DNA from: Deltaproteobacteria bacterium | Lineage (GTDB): Bacteria > Myxococcota > Myxococcia > Myxococcales > Anaeromyxobacteraceae | DNA: 64,000 nucleotides | Reading direction: 5' to 3' | Assembly (NCBI GenBank): GCA_016214955.1 | Contig: JACRMN010000017.1 | Coordinates: 186,001 to 250,000, forward strand | Shown here: positions 43,322 to 48,931 of the stretch, piece by piece | Numbering within the stretch: the stretch's first letter is position 1 | Layout of the letters: the number at the start of each line of letters is the position of its first letter | Notes under the pieces: model-generated | Database searches by the model: none | The model's input: the letters and a program-made list of their open reading frames with translations, nothing else | What the model was told of the DNA's origin: nothing | Program-made: the position numbers and the translations under genes

Positions 43322-43552
43322 GTGGCCTCCAGGGGCCGCGCCCGCCGCTTCTGGCGCCACCCGGCAACGGCTGCGGGGCTGGCGCTGCTCGGCCTCCTCC
43401 TCTTCCTCTGGCCCTTCGTGCGCCAGCCGCGTCCGGGCCTGGCCCGCGCCTGGGTCGAGCTCATGGCCGCCTGGGCGCTCGGCGTGATCGCGCTCCACCG
43501 CGTCTCGCGGCGGCGCGACCCCGGTGCGCCGGAGGCCGGGCGCGATGGCTAG
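43322..43552 (+). CDS. Small two-helix membrane protein
   Basis: A 76-residue protein with two hydrophobic helices (AAGLALLGLLLFLWPFV and AWVELMAAWALGVIALH) and basic ends. It starts with GTG 2 bp after the receiver gene and overlaps the start of the kinase by 8 bp. I do not recognise the family; the tight coupling suggests that it is a subunit or partner of the SSS-kinase. Confidence 0.6.
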   Translation: MASRGRARRFWRHPATAAGLALLGLLLFLWPFVRQPRPGLARAWVELMAAWALGVIALHRVSRRRDPGAPEAGRDG

Positions 43553-46500
43553 CCTCTTCGCCGTGGTGGCCGTGGTACTGGCCTACATGGGCCTGCTCTT
43601 CCTGCTGGCCGTCTGGGCCGAGCGGCAGGAGCAGCGCGGGCGACGCGCCGGCGGGAGCGCCCTCGTCTACGCGCTCTCCCTGGCCACCTACTGCAGCACC
43701 TGGACCTACTACGGCAGCGTGGGCAGCGCCGCCTCCTCGGGCCTGCTCTTCCTCGGCATCTACCTGGGGCCGACGGTGTCGGCAGTCTTCTGGCCGCGGC
43801 TCCTCGGCAAGATGATCCGCATCCGCAACGCCCACCGCGTCACCAGCGTTGCCGACCTGCTCTCGGTGCGCTACGGCAAGGCGCAGTCGGTGGCCACGGT
43901 GGCCACGCTCGGGCTCCTGCTGGGTCTCGTCCCCTACCTGGCGCTGCAGCTCAAGACCATGATCGCCACCGTGGCGGTCATCACCGGCCACGACCCGGCA
44001 CAGCCCGGCCCGGCCGCGGCCGGCCAGGTGGGGCCGCTCATCGTGGCCCTGATGGTGGTCTTCACCATCGTCTTCGGCATCCGCCGGCTCAGCCCCACCG
44101 AGCGCCACCCGGGCATGATGGTGGCGCTGGCCGCCGAGGCCGGGGTGAAGCTCGCCGGCCTGCTGCTGGCGGGCGCCTTCGTGGTCTACGCCCTCTTCGA
44201 CGGGCCCGGCGACCTGCTGGGCCGCGCCGGGGCGGCGGGGCTGCTGCCGGAGCTCCTGGGGAAGGGCGGCAGCCCGGTGACGATGGCGAGCTACCTGCTG
44301 CTCTCGGCGGTGGCGGTCCTGCTCCTGCCGCGCCAGTTCCACGTGGCGGTGGTGGAGAGCTCCGACCCCGACCACGTCCGCACCGCCACCTGGGCCTTCC
44401 CGGCCTACCTCCTGGCCATCAACGTCTTCGTCCTGCCGCTGGCGCTGGCCGGCCTGCTCCTCGGCCACCCGGCCCACGCCGCCGACACCTTCGTGCTCAC
44501 GCTCCCCTGGGCGGCCGGGGCGCGGGGCCTCGCCTGGCTGGTGTTCCTGGGCGGCTTCTCGGCCGGCACCGCCATGGTGATGGCCGAGACCATGACCATG
44601 GCCACCATGGTCTCCAACCACCTGCTGCTGCCGGCCATCGACCTTTGGCCGCGCCTCAACCGGCTGCGGCGCCACCTCCTGCCGGCCCGCTGGATCGCCG
44701 CGGCGCTGCTCCTGCTGGCGGCGCTGGCGTACGAGCGGCTGCTCGGCGGCCAGTACGAGCTGGTGCAGATCGGCCTCATCTCCTTCGCGGCCGTGCTGGT
44801 GCTGGCGCCGCCGCTCCTGGGCGGCCTCTACTGGCGCGAGGCGAGCACCGCTGGCGCGCTCTGGGGCCTGGTGGCCGGCTTCGCCGCCTGGGGCTACACG
44901 CTGCTCCTGCCGGTCTTCGTGCGCGCCGGCTGGCTGCCGGGGGGGCTGCTCTCCGAGGGGCCGGCCGGCATCGGCCTGCTGCGGCCCGAGGCGCTCCTCG
45001 GGCTCGGCGGCCTCGACCGCATCTCCCACGCCACCCTCTGGATCCTGCTGCTCGACGGCGGCGCCTTTGTCCTCGGCTCGCTGCTCCACCCGGCGCAGGC
45101 CTCGGAGGCGGCCCGGGCCCAGCGGCTGCTGGGCGCTGCCGAGCCCGAGCCCTGGGAGGCGCCCGAGCCGGCGGGCGCGGCCGCGGTGGCGCTGGCGGTC
45201 GAGAAGCGGGACCGCATGGTGCGGCTCTTCGCCCGCTACCACGAGGAGGCGGCGGCAGCCCGGCTGGCCGATGCTTGCCTGGCGCGGGTGGGGGTGGCGC
45301 CCGAGGGCTCGCTCTCGGCGCTGCAACTCGCCGAGCTGGAGGCCGAGGCCGAGACCACCCTGGCCTCCTCCATCGGCACCGCCGCCGCCCACGCCGAGGC
45401 CCGCCGCTGCCCCATCGCCACCGGCGAGGAGGAGCGGGCCATCTCCGCCGCCTACGGGCAGATCCTGGCCTCCCTCAAGGTCCCGCCCGCCGAGCTGCAG
45501 CGCAAGATCGACTACCACCGCGAGCGCGAGCGGCTGCTGGCGCACGAGGCCGAGACCCACCGCTTCCTGGCCGACGTCTCCGCCCAGCTCGCCGCCTCCC
45601 TCGACGTCGAGGCCACCGGCGCCACCGTGGTGGGGCTGGCGGTGCCGCGCTTCGCCGAGGCGGCGCTGCTCTGGGTGGCGCCTTCCCCCGAGGAGCCGAG
45701 GCCCGGCGCCTGGCTGGCGGAGGCGAGGCACGACCCGGCCCCGGCGGTGCGGCCGTTCGAGGCCGCCGAGGCGCTGGGCGCCCACCCCGGCGTGGCGCAG
45801 GCGCTGGCCACCGGGCGGATGCTGGTGGCCCGCGGCGGCACCTCGGCGGCCTGGCCCGGGGAGCGGCGCGAGCTGCCGCGCGCCGGCGAGATCATCTTCC
45901 CGCTCTCGGCCGGCGGCCGGCAGCTCGGGGCGCTGGTCCTGTTCCTCTCCGAGCCGGGCCAGCTCCAGTCGCCCGACGACCTGGCGCTGGCCGAGGAGCT
46001 GGCGCGCCGCTCGGCGGTGGCGCTCGTCAACGCCGCCCTGTTCCGCAGCGCCGAGGAGGCGGTGCGGGCCCGGGACGAGTTCCTGGCGGTGGCCTCGCAC
46101 GAGCTCAAGACCCCGCTCACCCCGCTGCGCCTCTCCATCCAGGCGGTGCAGCGGCTGGTGGCGCGGGGAGAGCTGGCCGGCGACCCGGCCCGGCACCTCC
46201 ACGCCGCGCTGGGGCGCGCCGACGGCCAGATCCGCCGGCTGGTGCGGCTGGTCGACTACCTCCTCGACGTCTCCCGCATCACCACCCGCCGGCTCCGGCT
46301 GCAGCTCGAGCCCACCGACCTCTCGGCGGCGGTGATCGAGGTGCTCGATCGCCACCGGGCCGAGCTCTCCCAGGCGGGCTGCACCGTCTCGGTGGCCACC
46401 GCCCAGGGTGCCGTGGGGCGCTGGGACCGGCTGCGCATCGAGCAGGTGGTCACCAACCTGCTCACCAACGCCATGAAGTACGCCCCCGGCCCCATCGACG

Positions 46501-46763
46501 TGGCGGTGGACGCCCAGGCCGACCGCACGCGCCTGGTGGTGCGCGACCGCGGCCCGGGCATCGCCCGCGAGGACCAGGAGCGCATCTTCCTGCCCTTCGA
46601 GCGCGCCGTCTCCTACCTGCGGGCCAGCGGCTTCGGCCTGGGCCTCTTCATCGTCCGCCAGATCGTGGACGCCCACGGCGGCACCGTGCACCTGGAGTCG
46701 GCGCCGGGCCAGGGCAGCACCTTCACCGTCGAGCTGCCGCGCCAGCCGCCGGCGAGCGCGTGA
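43545..46763 (+). CDS. Sodium/solute symporter-sensor histidine kinase fusion
   Basis: A 1072-residue membrane protein. About 13 transmembrane helices of the SSS transporter fold (residues 1 to about 520; YCSTWTYYGSVG, GGFSAGTAMVMAETMTMATM) lead into a linker, a GAF-like region (about 660-820), HisKA (His852, ASHELKTPL) and a HATPase (NLLTNAMKYAP, RDRGPGI, GFGLGLFIV). The architecture resembles CbrA-type regulators of carbon use. The ATG at 43545 has GGAGG 9 bp upstream. With the receiver and the small membrane protein it forms a three-gene signalling unit. Confidence 0.9.
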   Translation: MASLFAVVAVVLAYMGLLFLLAVWAERQEQRGRRAGGSALVYALSLATYCSTWTYYGSVGSAASSGLLFLGIYLGPTVSAVFWPRLLGKMIRIRNAHRVTSVADLLSVRYGKAQSVATVATLGLLLGLVPYLALQLKTMIATVAVITGHDPAQPGPAAAGQVGPLIVALMVVFTIVFGIRRLSPTERHPGMMVALAAEAGVKLAGLLLAGAFVVYALFDGPGDLLGRAGAAGLLPELLGKGGSPVTMASYLLLSAVAVLLLPRQFHVAVVESSDPDHVRTATWAFPAYLLAINVFVLPLALAGLLLGHPAHAADTFVLTLPWAAGARGLAWLVFLGGFSAGTAMVMAETMTMATMVSNHLLLPAIDLWPRLNRLRRHLLPARWIAAALLLLAALAYERLLGGQYELVQIGLISFAAVLVLAPPLLGGLYWREASTAGALWGLVAGFAAWGYTLLLPVFVRAGWLPGGLLSEGPAGIGLLRPEALLGLGGLDRISHATLWILLLDGGAFVLGSLLHPAQASEAARAQRLLGAAEPEPWEAPEPAGAAAVALAVEKRDRMVRLFARYHEEAAAARLADACLARVGVAPEGSLSALQLAELEAEAETTLASSIGTAAAHAEARRCPIATGEEERAISAAYGQILASLKVPPAELQRKIDYHRERERLLAHEAETHRFLADVSAQLAASLDVEATGATVVGLAVPRFAEAALLWVAPSPEEPRPGAWLAEARHDPAPAVRPFEAAEALGAHPGVAQALATGRMLVARGGTSAAWPGERRELPRAGEIIFPLSAGGRQLGALVLFLSEPGQLQSPDDLALAEELARRSAVALVNAALFRSAEEAVRARDEFLAVASHELKTPLTPLRLSIQAVQRLVARGELAGDPARHLHAALGRADGQIRRLVRLVDYLLDVSRITTRRLRLQLEPTDLSAAVIEVLDRHRAELSQAGCTVSVATAQGAVGRWDRLRIEQVVTNLLTNAMKYAPGPIDVAVDAQADRTRLVVRDRGPGIAREDQERIFLPFERAVSYLRASGFGLGLFIVRQIVDAHGGTVHLESAPGQGSTFTVELPRQPPASA

Positions 46764-46851
46764 AGGGGCGCCACCTCCCCCGGGGAGTCGGAGCGGGCTG
46801 CGGCGAAGTTCCGCAGACTTCGGCCCCGGGGGGCTGCGGCGCAGGTAGTCC

Positions 46852-46880
46852 TTGTGGGGTCGCGGGCCGTTCACTATAGG
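46852..46880 (+). promoter_or_regulatory. Promoter of the Lpp-like gene
   Basis: TTGTGG (46852-46857), 17 bp, then TATAGG (46875-46880) form a good sigma-70-type promoter. Transcription would start near 46887, about 57 bases before the ATG. A highly expressed small lipoprotein would fit a strong promoter. Confidence 0.55.
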
Positions 46881-46943
46881 GAGCAACGCCGGACGCAGGC
46901 GCCGCTCGGTCGCCATGGGCGACCAACACCAAAGGGGAACACG

Positions 46944-47285
46944 ATGACCCGTACACTTGGACTCATCAGCCTGATGCTGCTCGCCGTGGGCTGTGCCACC
47001 AACGCGTCGGTCCGCCAGGAGATCGAGCCGCTCAACAACCGGCTCTCCGAGGTGGAGCGCAGGACGGCCGCCACGGAGGCCAAGGTCTCGCAGCTGGACG
47101 GGAAGGCCGCCGCCGACACCGCCGACGTCAAGGCGCTGCGCGCCGAGGTGGCGGAGTCTCGGGCGGCGGCGCAGAAGGCGCAGCAGGCGGCGGAGGAGGC
47201 GCGGGCTGCTGCGGCCCAGGCGGAGGCGTCCGCGGCGAAGGCTGCCAAGGCGTTCGAGCTTCGCCAGCTGAAGGGTCGCCAGTAG
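46944..47285 (+). CDS. Lpp-like alanine-rich lipoprotein
   Basis: A 113-residue lipoprotein: MTRTLGLISLMLLAVGCAT has lipobox AVGC (Cys17), followed by a coiled coil rich in Ala, Glu, Lys and Gln, typical of alanine-zipper lipoproteins related to Braun's Lpp. It ends LKGRQ, so the C-terminal lysine used for peptidoglycan linkage in Lpp is absent. AAAGGGG lies 8 bp before the ATG. Its 3' half overlaps, antisense, the proline-rich end of an L,D-transpeptidase gene. Confidence 0.82.
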   Translation: MTRTLGLISLMLLAVGCATNASVRQEIEPLNNRLSEVERRTAATEAKVSQLDGKAAADTADVKALRAEVAESRAAAQKAQQAAEEARAAAAQAEASAAKAAKAFELRQLKGRQ

Positions 47286-48288
47286 CGCCACCGGCGGCGG
47301 GCCCCCCGGAGACGTCCACGGGGATGCCCTGGCACGCCCGCAGGGCAGCCTCCAGCCTGCGGGCGTCCACCCGCCCGAGGAGCGCGCGGCGCGTCAGCAG
47401 GCGCCTCGCCTCCGCCAGGTAGTCGATCCCGGCGGCCTCGTCCTGGTGGGCCTCCACGTACACGCGGCCTGCGTGCTCGCCCACCTTCACGGGCTCCCGG
47501 ACGATCCTCACCCGGGTCCCCACCGGAACCCGCTCGTACAGGATCGGGATGTCCTCGGGGTAGAGCCGCAGGCAGCCGTGGCTCACCTTCCGCCCCACGC
47601 CGAACGGCTTGTCGGTGCCGTGGATGAGGAGAAGCGGGTTCGACAGCCGCAGGGCATGCGTCCCCAGCGGATTGTCCGGGCCCGGAGGGACCACCGCCGG
47701 CCACTCGGGGTTCTCCCTCCGGATGGAGGCGGTGGGGTACCAGCTCGGGTTCACCTGCTTCTGGATGACCTTGAAGGTCCCGAGCGGCGTGTCCCAGCCG
47801 CCGGTCCCCACTCCCACCGGGAAGGTCATCGGGGCGCCGGGGTCCGCCGGGGTCAGGTAGAGCCGCATCTCGGAGAGGTTGACGAGCAGGGTCCCGGGCG
47901 CCGCGGACCTGGGCACGATCCAGGCGGTGGGGATGACAACGGGCGCCCCCGGCGTGGGGACGAAGGCATCGAGCGCGGGGTTGGCCGCCTGGATGACGTT
48001 GAAGCCGACGCCGTACTGGCGCGCCATCTCGATGAGCGACTCGCCGGCGCGCACGGTGCGCCGGCAGACGCCGCCCAGGACCTCCCGCGGGGCGCAGTCT
48101 CCCCAGGGGCGGCACGCGGGTGACCCGCGCAGCTCGCAGGGGTCTCCGGCGTCCGCGGCGCCGGCGGGGATCTGCTCGACGGCCGCGGGCGGCGGTGCGT
48201 GCGCACACCCGGCGCCGAGCGCGGCGAGCACCAGGAGGAGCGCAGCCGCGCGGAGGGGAGCCAGGGGAGAGGTCGAGGGTCGGGACAC
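47128..48288 (-). CDS. Lipoprotein L,D-transpeptidase with LysM domain
   Basis: A 386-residue enzyme. Lipobox LGAGC (Cys28), a LysM-like peptidoglycan-binding motif (VRAGESLIEMARQYG ... IQAANPALD, about 79-108) and a YkuD domain (about 132-265) with the catalytic SHGCLRL (Cys239). ErfK/YcfS-type members attach lipoprotein or form 3-3 crosslinks in peptidoglycan. The last 52 or so residues are a proline-rich tail encoded entirely antisense to the Lpp-like gene (158-bp convergent overlap); no earlier stop exists. Confidence 0.85.
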   Translation of the reverse strand: MSRPSTSPLAPLRAAALLLVLAALGAGCAHAPPPAAVEQIPAGAADAGDPCELRGSPACRPWGDCAPREVLGGVCRRTVRAGESLIEMARQYGVGFNVIQAANPALDAFVPTPGAPVVIPTAWIVPRSAAPGTLLVNLSEMRLYLTPADPGAPMTFPVGVGTGGWDTPLGTFKVIQKQVNPSWYPTASIRRENPEWPAVVPPGPDNPLGTHALRLSNPLLLIHGTDKPFGVGRKVSHGCLRLYPEDIPILYERVPVGTRVRIVREPVKVGEHAGRVYVEAHQDEAAGIDYLAEARRLLTRRALLGRVDARRLEAALRACQGIPVDVSGGPAAGGATGDPSAGEARTPWQPSPRTPPPGPQQPAPPPPPAAPSAPPPETPPPRRAAP

Positions 48289-48415
48289 GGCGCTCCGGTG
48301 CGGGTGGACGGTTGCCGCCTCTCGGCGGACACCACCTTACATGCCGATACGGACCGCGAGGATCAATGGCCTCGTCGCGGTGACAAGGACCGCCGCCTGG
48401 CGTAGCCTCGATCCG

Positions 48416-48931
48416 GTGGCCGGCTTCGTCTCTACCACGCGGCGAGCGATCGCCCTCCTGGCGCTGCTCCTGTCCGGCGGCGGCAGGGCGGGCGAGGCGG
48501 ATGCGACCTCGCACTGCCCCAGGAAGGGCGACGTGGTCGCCGTCATCTCCGAGAAGCGCCAGGTCTGGCTGTGCCGCGACGGCGCGCCACAGGCGCACTT
48601 CCAGGTGGCCCTGGGCGCGGGCGGCGTGGGCAAGCGCCGCAAGGGGGACGGGAGGACGCCGGTCGGAACCTACGCGCTCGGCTCTCCGAGGCCGTCGAAG
48701 CGCTTCGGGACCTTCATCCCCATCGCCTACCCCACGCCCCGGCAGGCGGCACGGGGGCTCACCGGCGGTGCGGTCGGGATCCACGGCCCGCCCCGGGGAA
48801 GAGCCGAGCCGGAGTACCCTGCCAGCGAGATCGACTGGACCGAGGGGTGTGTCGCCACCGGAACCGACGAGGTGATCGAGGTCATCGCCGACTTCGTCCG
48901 CCAGCGGCGGCCGGTGCTGCTGGTCCGGTGA
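48416..48931 (+). CDS. Exported small L,D-transpeptidase (YkuD fold)
   Basis: A 171-residue protein. A signal peptide (RRAIALLALLLSGGGRAGEA) is followed by VVAVISEKRQVWLCRDG, GDGRTPVGTYALG and the catalytic region IHGPP (His123) and WTEGCVATG (Cys145), close to the YafK/ErfK L,D-transpeptidase pattern although TEGC replaces the usual SHGC. The GTG at 48416 begins the signal peptide; an in-frame ATG at 48341 is the alternative. It is divergent from the larger L,D-transpeptidase. Confidence 0.8.
   Translation: MAGFVSTTRRAIALLALLLSGGGRAGEADATSHCPRKGDVVAVISEKRQVWLCRDGAPQAHFQVALGAGGVGKRRKGDGRTPVGTYALGSPRPSKRFGTFIPIAYPTPRQAARGLTGGAVGIHGPPRGRAEPEYPASEIDWTEGCVATGTDEVIEVIADFVRQRRPVLLVR

Follow-up and report, generated by a model that had tools for sequence, protein, structure and literature searches.

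In one genome of the family Anaeromyxobacteraceae, a lipoprotein-like gene (lpp) and an L,D-transpeptidase gene (ldt) share 158 bp on opposite strands, an overlap that, on the sequence comparisons presented here, represents stop loss of an ordinary kind, observed in this genome alone. Very probably, an ancestral convergent and non-overlapping pair lost part of its junction and with it the ldt stop codon, leading to read-through of ldt into the antisense strand of lpp. Because the relatives keep both a longer junction and the ldt stop codon there, and the window (the whole stretch analysed, 64,000 nucleotides of contig JACRMN010000017.1) has neither, the C-terminal tail of the transpeptidase is interpreted as read-through into lpp antisense in this single genome.

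The overlapping genes and their products

The window has a GC content of 70-79% per 2-kb step, and the features considered here are the following (window positions).

46944..47285, + strand: lpp-like gene, ATG at 46944, 113 aa, stop at 47285, inside an open reading frame listed as 46854..47285
48288..47128, - strand: ldt, L,D-transpeptidase gene, GTG start, 386 aa as now read
47128..47285, both strands: antisense coding overlap of lpp and ldt, 158 bp, two open frames
47128..47310, - strand: C-terminal extension of ldt, 60 residues after PVDV plus stop
47311..47322, - strand: conserved PVDV, ldt residues 323-326, placed by alignment, near the ancestral enzyme end
47286..47310, no strand: short junction from the lpp stop to the PVDV codons, 25 bp, compared with 56-99 bp in eight relatives
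48341..48931, + strand: ldt2, second YkuD-fold gene, divergent from ldt

The coordinates of the open reading frames agree with the overlap given in a preliminary description of this locus, and the part of the ldt extension that lies inside lpp comprises two bases of codon 335, 51 complete codons and the stop codon. Both lpp and ldt look like real genes, considering the YkuD match of ldt and the occurrence of neighbouring relatives of both elsewhere. The lpp product is an Ala-rich coiled coil with a lipobox Cys at residue 17 and the C-terminus KGRQ. As previously proposed, and as can be read from the sequence, the ldt tail is the phase-shifted complement of this coiled coil, and it is Pro-rich because the off-phase complement of GCG-rich Ala codons is CCG, a Pro codon. 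Just upstream of lpp lies a gene for a sensor kinase of 1079 aa with GAF, HisKA and HATPase domains (43524-46763, + strand). In the short flanks available for relatives, no orthologue of this kinase or of the window's winged-helix/TPR gene was found, the only hits being two partial kinase matches.

The YkuD domain of ldt (residues 133-262) matches PF03734 with an E value of 2.7e-24 and 86.9 bits against a cut-off of 23.4, and contains SHGCLR, which includes the SHGC signature of YkuD L,D-transpeptidases. The closest NCBIfam models are the PRK10190, PRK10260 and LdtE equivalogs (NF007563, NF007612 and NF047955), for which the scores of 165.7, 157.9 and 154.6 bits lie below the respective cut-offs of 517, 583 and 480. 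Among solved structures, 9tyw is nearest in sequence, and the closest fold is that of 4lzh, a transpeptidase from Klebsiella (E 1.8e-24). In an AlphaFold2 model built from 17 sequences, 24 of the 26 ten-residue blocks between residues 71 and 330 scored at least 85 and the predicted structured core ends near residue 330; residues 331-386 have pLDDT block means of 34-66 and no secondary structure, so the tail is predicted to be unstructured. The alignment with the relatives shows no break at SHGCLR or elsewhere in the catalytic domain, and, because this domain looks intact, the enzyme most likely still works.

The assignment of the lipoprotein is less direct. The Pfam search of the window protein returned coiled-coil-type models only, each below its cut-off, and no match to PF04728 (Lpp) up to an E value of 1; for the lipoproteins of eight relatives, PF04728 was not among the matches listed (25 of 68 families). 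The alanine-zipper model of Lpp/OprI, NF040598, gave 21.3 bits for the window protein, below the cut-off of 43. This model matches all nine family lipoproteins at E <= 0.01 (best 4.4e-5), as does an SMC coiled-coil model. Homology to Lpp/OprI-type proteins by profile comparison was rejected; because only 19 signal-peptide columns align, the link of the window lipoprotein to these proteins rests on its gene neighbourhood. Alignment A5 held 15 of 16 prepared sequences, L077 having been dropped for want of a pattern match.

Stop positions and gene order in relatives

Among 41 genomes searched, one of them the source of the window, ldt was found at E <= 0.001 in 12, nine of which belong to the window's family; lpp was found in the same nine of the 24 family genomes, covering three of six genera. 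Both genes are absent from the other 15 family genomes, several of which are nearly complete. The genus of the window is represented by two more genomes (81% and 87% complete), and since both lack lpp and ldt at this threshold, the stop loss is not seen in a second assembly.

Eight family loci from eight genomes have both genes (L002, L003, L004, L008, L009, L013, L014 and L015). In all of them the genes are convergent and non-overlapping, with stops 44-69 bp apart, and the lpp orthologues adjoining ldt match the window copy at 39-56%. Three further ldt copies lacking this lipoprotein neighbour (L005-L007, ending in SIDVF) bring the number of compared enzyme ends to 11. A comparison of stop positions in relatives had been suggested as a check; it places all 11 ends near residue 326, 3-11 residues after PVDV, and the tail is absent from every one of them.

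Five of the nine family lipoproteins end in Lys and three in Met (KGKM), and the window protein ends in Gln. The KG-motif Lys at the fourth-last position and AKAFEL near the C-terminus are both invariant (9/9). The C-terminal Lys used for attachment is therefore missing from the window protein (KGRQ), and terminal-Lys attachment of this protein is not supported; because there is no terminal Lys, attachment would need the invariant KG-motif Lys, unless it has been given up. A second lipoprotein copy, ending in KGARKQ, occurs at L025 1501-1824 (genome G022), and no transpeptidase motif [ST]xGCx[RA] was found in that 3.3-kb locus.

A lost ldt stop together with a lipoprotein whose terminal residue is Gln might also indicate that the whole module is decaying, a reading compatible with read-through after stop loss. 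We consider such decay improbable, since SHGCLR and the catalytic domain align without a break, the enzyme fold is predicted confidently, and the three relatives that likewise have no terminal Lys (KGKM) keep a normal ldt end.

The junction and its spacer

The spacers of the eight paired relatives fold at -30.8 to -46.2 kcal/mol, with z scores of -2.4 or lower against mononucleotide shuffles in five; the hairpins of L014 (z -1.4), L015 (z -1.7) and L008 (z +0.4) are weak. RNAalifold, applied to seven of these spacers (L008 excluded), gave a 12-pair stem with a covariation term of 0.12 and one pair changed on both sides. Because there is almost no covariation, the case for the hairpin depends on how conserved and how stable it is. 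The remnant of the junction in the window folds at -10.0 kcal/mol (z +0.4, mononucleotide shuffles), with no comparable hairpin, and in the alignment the window lacks both the left arm of the hairpin and the stretch that carries the ldt stop.

No T-run terminator was found at the junction within 46600-48700. A perfect 11-bp inverted repeat is located at 47334-47366, inside ldt and approximately 50 bp past the lpp stop; with the spacer hairpin lost, it could terminate the lpp mRNA.

A sequencing frameshift, which the preliminary description had put forward as an observation that would overturn its reading, was rejected as the reason why the early stop is missing: all minus frames are free of stop codons over 47286-47320, and neither a single-base deletion nor an insertion, one of each being tried at a single site, produced a stop up to the end of the stretch read.

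A larger artefact of assembly or sequencing is a different matter. A GC-rich hairpin and the adjacent stop could have been dropped from the assembly, in which case the real ldt would end near residue 330, and it fits such an error that the overlap occurs in one genome only and that the missing stretch lies at a GC-rich hairpin and takes in the stably folding portion of the relatives' spacers. Nevertheless, we regard this as unlikely, as a one-base error is ruled out, both reading frames are otherwise intact, and the remnant is unlike what a clean excision would leave, since the surrounding sequence, with the last codons of lpp, differs from relatives by substitutions as well.

Under the preferred reading, stop loss with read-through, the ancestral state would have been a convergent pair of a coiled-coil lipoprotein gene and ldt with stops approximately 45-70 bp apart, separated by a hairpin that most relatives have in stable form. 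The lineage leading to this genome would then have lost, in net terms, approximately 30 bp or more at the junction, and with them the ldt stop and an intact hairpin, a deletion being the simplest account of this loss. Translation would continue along the antisense strand of lpp until a stop occurs by chance, giving the enzyme 60 further residues that are Pro-rich and unstructured, and we infer that this tail is translated and at least nearly neutral.

Composition and length of the overlap

The GC content at codon positions 1, 2 and 3 of the overlap is.85,.56 and.88 in the lpp frame and.85,.88 and.56 in the ldt frame, whereas the body of ldt has.74,.54 and.95. By this measure the overlap has the character of lipoprotein-coding DNA rather than that of ldt. 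Together with the invariance of AKAFEL in nine lipoproteins, the fit of codon-position GC to lpp agrees with lpp being the older frame. The preliminary description had suggested that the tail was overprinted after loss of an earlier stop, and it is right on the direction of overprinting: relatives stop near residue 326, and the overlap is composed like lpp and not like ldt.

The length of the open antisense frame carries no sign of coding, a possibility that was rejected because all three frames are open across the overlap. From the lpp stop, the three antisense frames run 158 bp (the ldt frame, which is the shortest), 412 bp and 3825 bp to their first stop. When the codon order of lpp was shuffled, 24% of 2000 shuffles contained a run of at least 158 bp in the ldt frame, and virtual loss of the ldt stop in the eight paired relatives (8/8) gave overlaps of 95, 245, 435, 474, 551, 724, 724 and 1179 bp. 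Given these open-frame lengths, shuffles and virtual stop losses, the overlap is, once the stop has been lost, not longer than expected by chance.

Stop loss has been named as an origin of gene overlaps (PMC2268670), and a stop codon mutation model has been described for antiparallel genes (PMC2174442). The present case resembles this model in that a stop vanishes, reading runs to the next stop inside the neighbour and the length is set by the composition of that neighbour; it differs in that the loss comes with a shorter spacer and a lost hairpin and not with a point change alone.

Lipoprotein/transpeptidase pairs in other bacteria

A first set of 30 loci contained 27 from outside the family, and at least nine of these have a convergent Lys-ending lipoprotein gene nearby (L029, L030, L031, L033, L036, L040, L041, L043 and L044). 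This count is a lower bound, as the pattern search misses some cases: it found none at L034, yet the genome of L034 gives the convergent locus L068 by profile. In L039 the Lys-ending lipoprotein is on the same strand as the transpeptidase. The locus L044 (2168-2482), from a metagenome-assembled genome titled Chloroflexi, holds a convergent pair with a 10-bp spacer, and its lipoprotein end, AFEMGLRK, resembles the AFEL..KG end of the window's family.

Of 17 genomes chosen from those loci for holding a relative of the enzyme, 13 match NF040598, 10 over the cut-off, and of 143 genomes from the class of the Nitrosomonas genome G042, 53 match, 30 over the cut-off. Neighbourhoods were counted for the 48 best-scoring loci from both searches, 41 of which have a clear Lpp/OprI-type reading frame; with a lipoprotein profile built from two seeds only, the seven loci without a clear Lpp may include real ones. 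A convergent transpeptidase gene is present in 31 of the 41, with gaps of 13-265 bp and no overlap. Two of the remaining 10 have a codirectional transpeptidase, and eight have none within flanks of approximately 1.5 kb (three of the eight being one gene). The draw from the class alone (L075-L103), considering its best-scoring 29 loci, has the convergent pair in 22 of 27 loci with a clear reading frame. The lipoprotein ends in Lys in 40 of the 41 loci, the exception being L098 (KGR).

The spacers of these convergent pairs were also folded. Twenty-nine of the 31 pairs were taken (L083 and L096 left out) and 27 folded, two spacers being under 25 bp; z was below -2 in 22 of the 27. By eye, many of these spacers resemble bidirectional terminators. 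Searches of the open-licence PMC literature, and within PMC10434034 and PMC12729407, found no mention of the recurring lpp/ldt gene pair, and no paper in that literature was found to contain 'Anaeromyxobacter' and 'Braun lipoprotein' together.

Because the genes form a recurring convergent pair, regulation at their 3' ends is thinkable, and the overlap might have been selected for coupling the expression of substrate and enzyme by transcriptional interference or RNA pairing; a Pro-rich tail that works outside the cytoplasm would also be plausible for an exported protein. Selection of either kind is, however, very improbable: the tail has the length and composition that the complement of lpp gives and no predicted structure, and none of the eight family loci or the 31 other convergent pairs overlaps, for which reason the overlap was also rejected as a conserved regulatory trait. 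The shorter, non-overlapping form of the relatives (8/8 family loci), with no overlap in the other convergent pairs (31/31), is what stop loss would leave behind. It had been noted earlier that substrate-like and enzyme-like genes share DNA here; the pairing of such genes is borne out by its recurrence, whereas a function of the shared DNA is not, with one genome showing it and no relative overlapping.

A candidate outer-membrane tethering cassette

The lpp/ldt pair looks like a substrate with its enzyme, by analogy with OprI and LdtPae2 of P. aeruginosa (PMC10434034, where LdtPae2 was expressed in a laboratory strain of E. coli devoid of its six ldt genes). As in that system and in LdtA-C/Lpp of E. 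coli, ldt belongs to the YkuD class, has the (S/T)XGCh(R/N) motif and adjoins a gene for an Ala-rich lipoprotein. Unlike OprI and Lpp, the window lipoprotein has Gln as its last residue and does not reach the NF040598 cut-off, and its attachment is putative.

The third gene, ldt2 (other possible start codons at 48380 and 48416), matches PF03734 with an E value of 1.6e-14 and 55.1 bits and carries the motif WTEGCVATG, of the DpaA-like C-h-A type. DpaA/YafK (LdtF) is an amidase that frees Lpp (PMC8263019), and in most DpaA-like proteins the second residue after the Cys is reported to be Ala or Asn, in contrast to the Arg of transferases (PMC8263019; PMC10434034). Like DpaA/YafK, ldt2 combines a YkuD domain with Ala at this position, which window ldt (SHGCLR) does not have; unlike DpaA, it scores only 17.8 bits against NF040599, the DpaA model, whose cut-off is 365. 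All eight ldt2 proteins compared (window and seven relatives) contain T-x-G-C-[VI]-A, with the DpaA-like Ala. The gene lies divergently beside ldt in all seven relatives whose contig reaches far enough, L009 being outside this count as its contig ends inside ldt, and was not found beside the ldt of L005-L007. Relatives of ldt2 occur in 11 of the 24 family genomes, some away from this neighbourhood: G004, G016 and G019 have second copies, and G020 has one together with neither lpp nor ldt.

This recurring neighbourhood suggests that ldt may attach the lipoprotein to peptidoglycan and the divergent ldt2 may detach it. Tentatively, some Anaeromyxobacteraceae may thus possess a self-contained cassette for outer-membrane tethering (lpp, an attaching ldt and a detaching ldt2) that surveys based on PF04728 would miss, the window being an overrun variant without the terminal Lys. 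Counting against this proposal, lpp and ldt occur together in only nine of the 24 family genomes, and the window lipoprotein is both Gln-ended and below the model cut-off.

M. xanthus belongs to the same phylum as the window genome. According to a preprint (PMC12132463), it lacks Lpp and serves as a model for independent division of the outer membrane, and E. coli Lpp devoid of the terminal Lys failed to couple the layers in it. In PMC8263019, Lpp (PF04728) was confined to some of the Gammaproteobacteria, and the role of DpaA-like proteins was left open in other groups, including Deltaproteobacteria. As a clean case of overprinting after stop loss in GC-rich DNA, the overlap has little wider import. 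The main interest lies in the recurring cassette, suggested by gene neighbourhood in the phylum of an organism reportedly without Lpp, which would allow both the role of DpaA-like proteins and the Lpp-less M. xanthus model to be tested in a related family.
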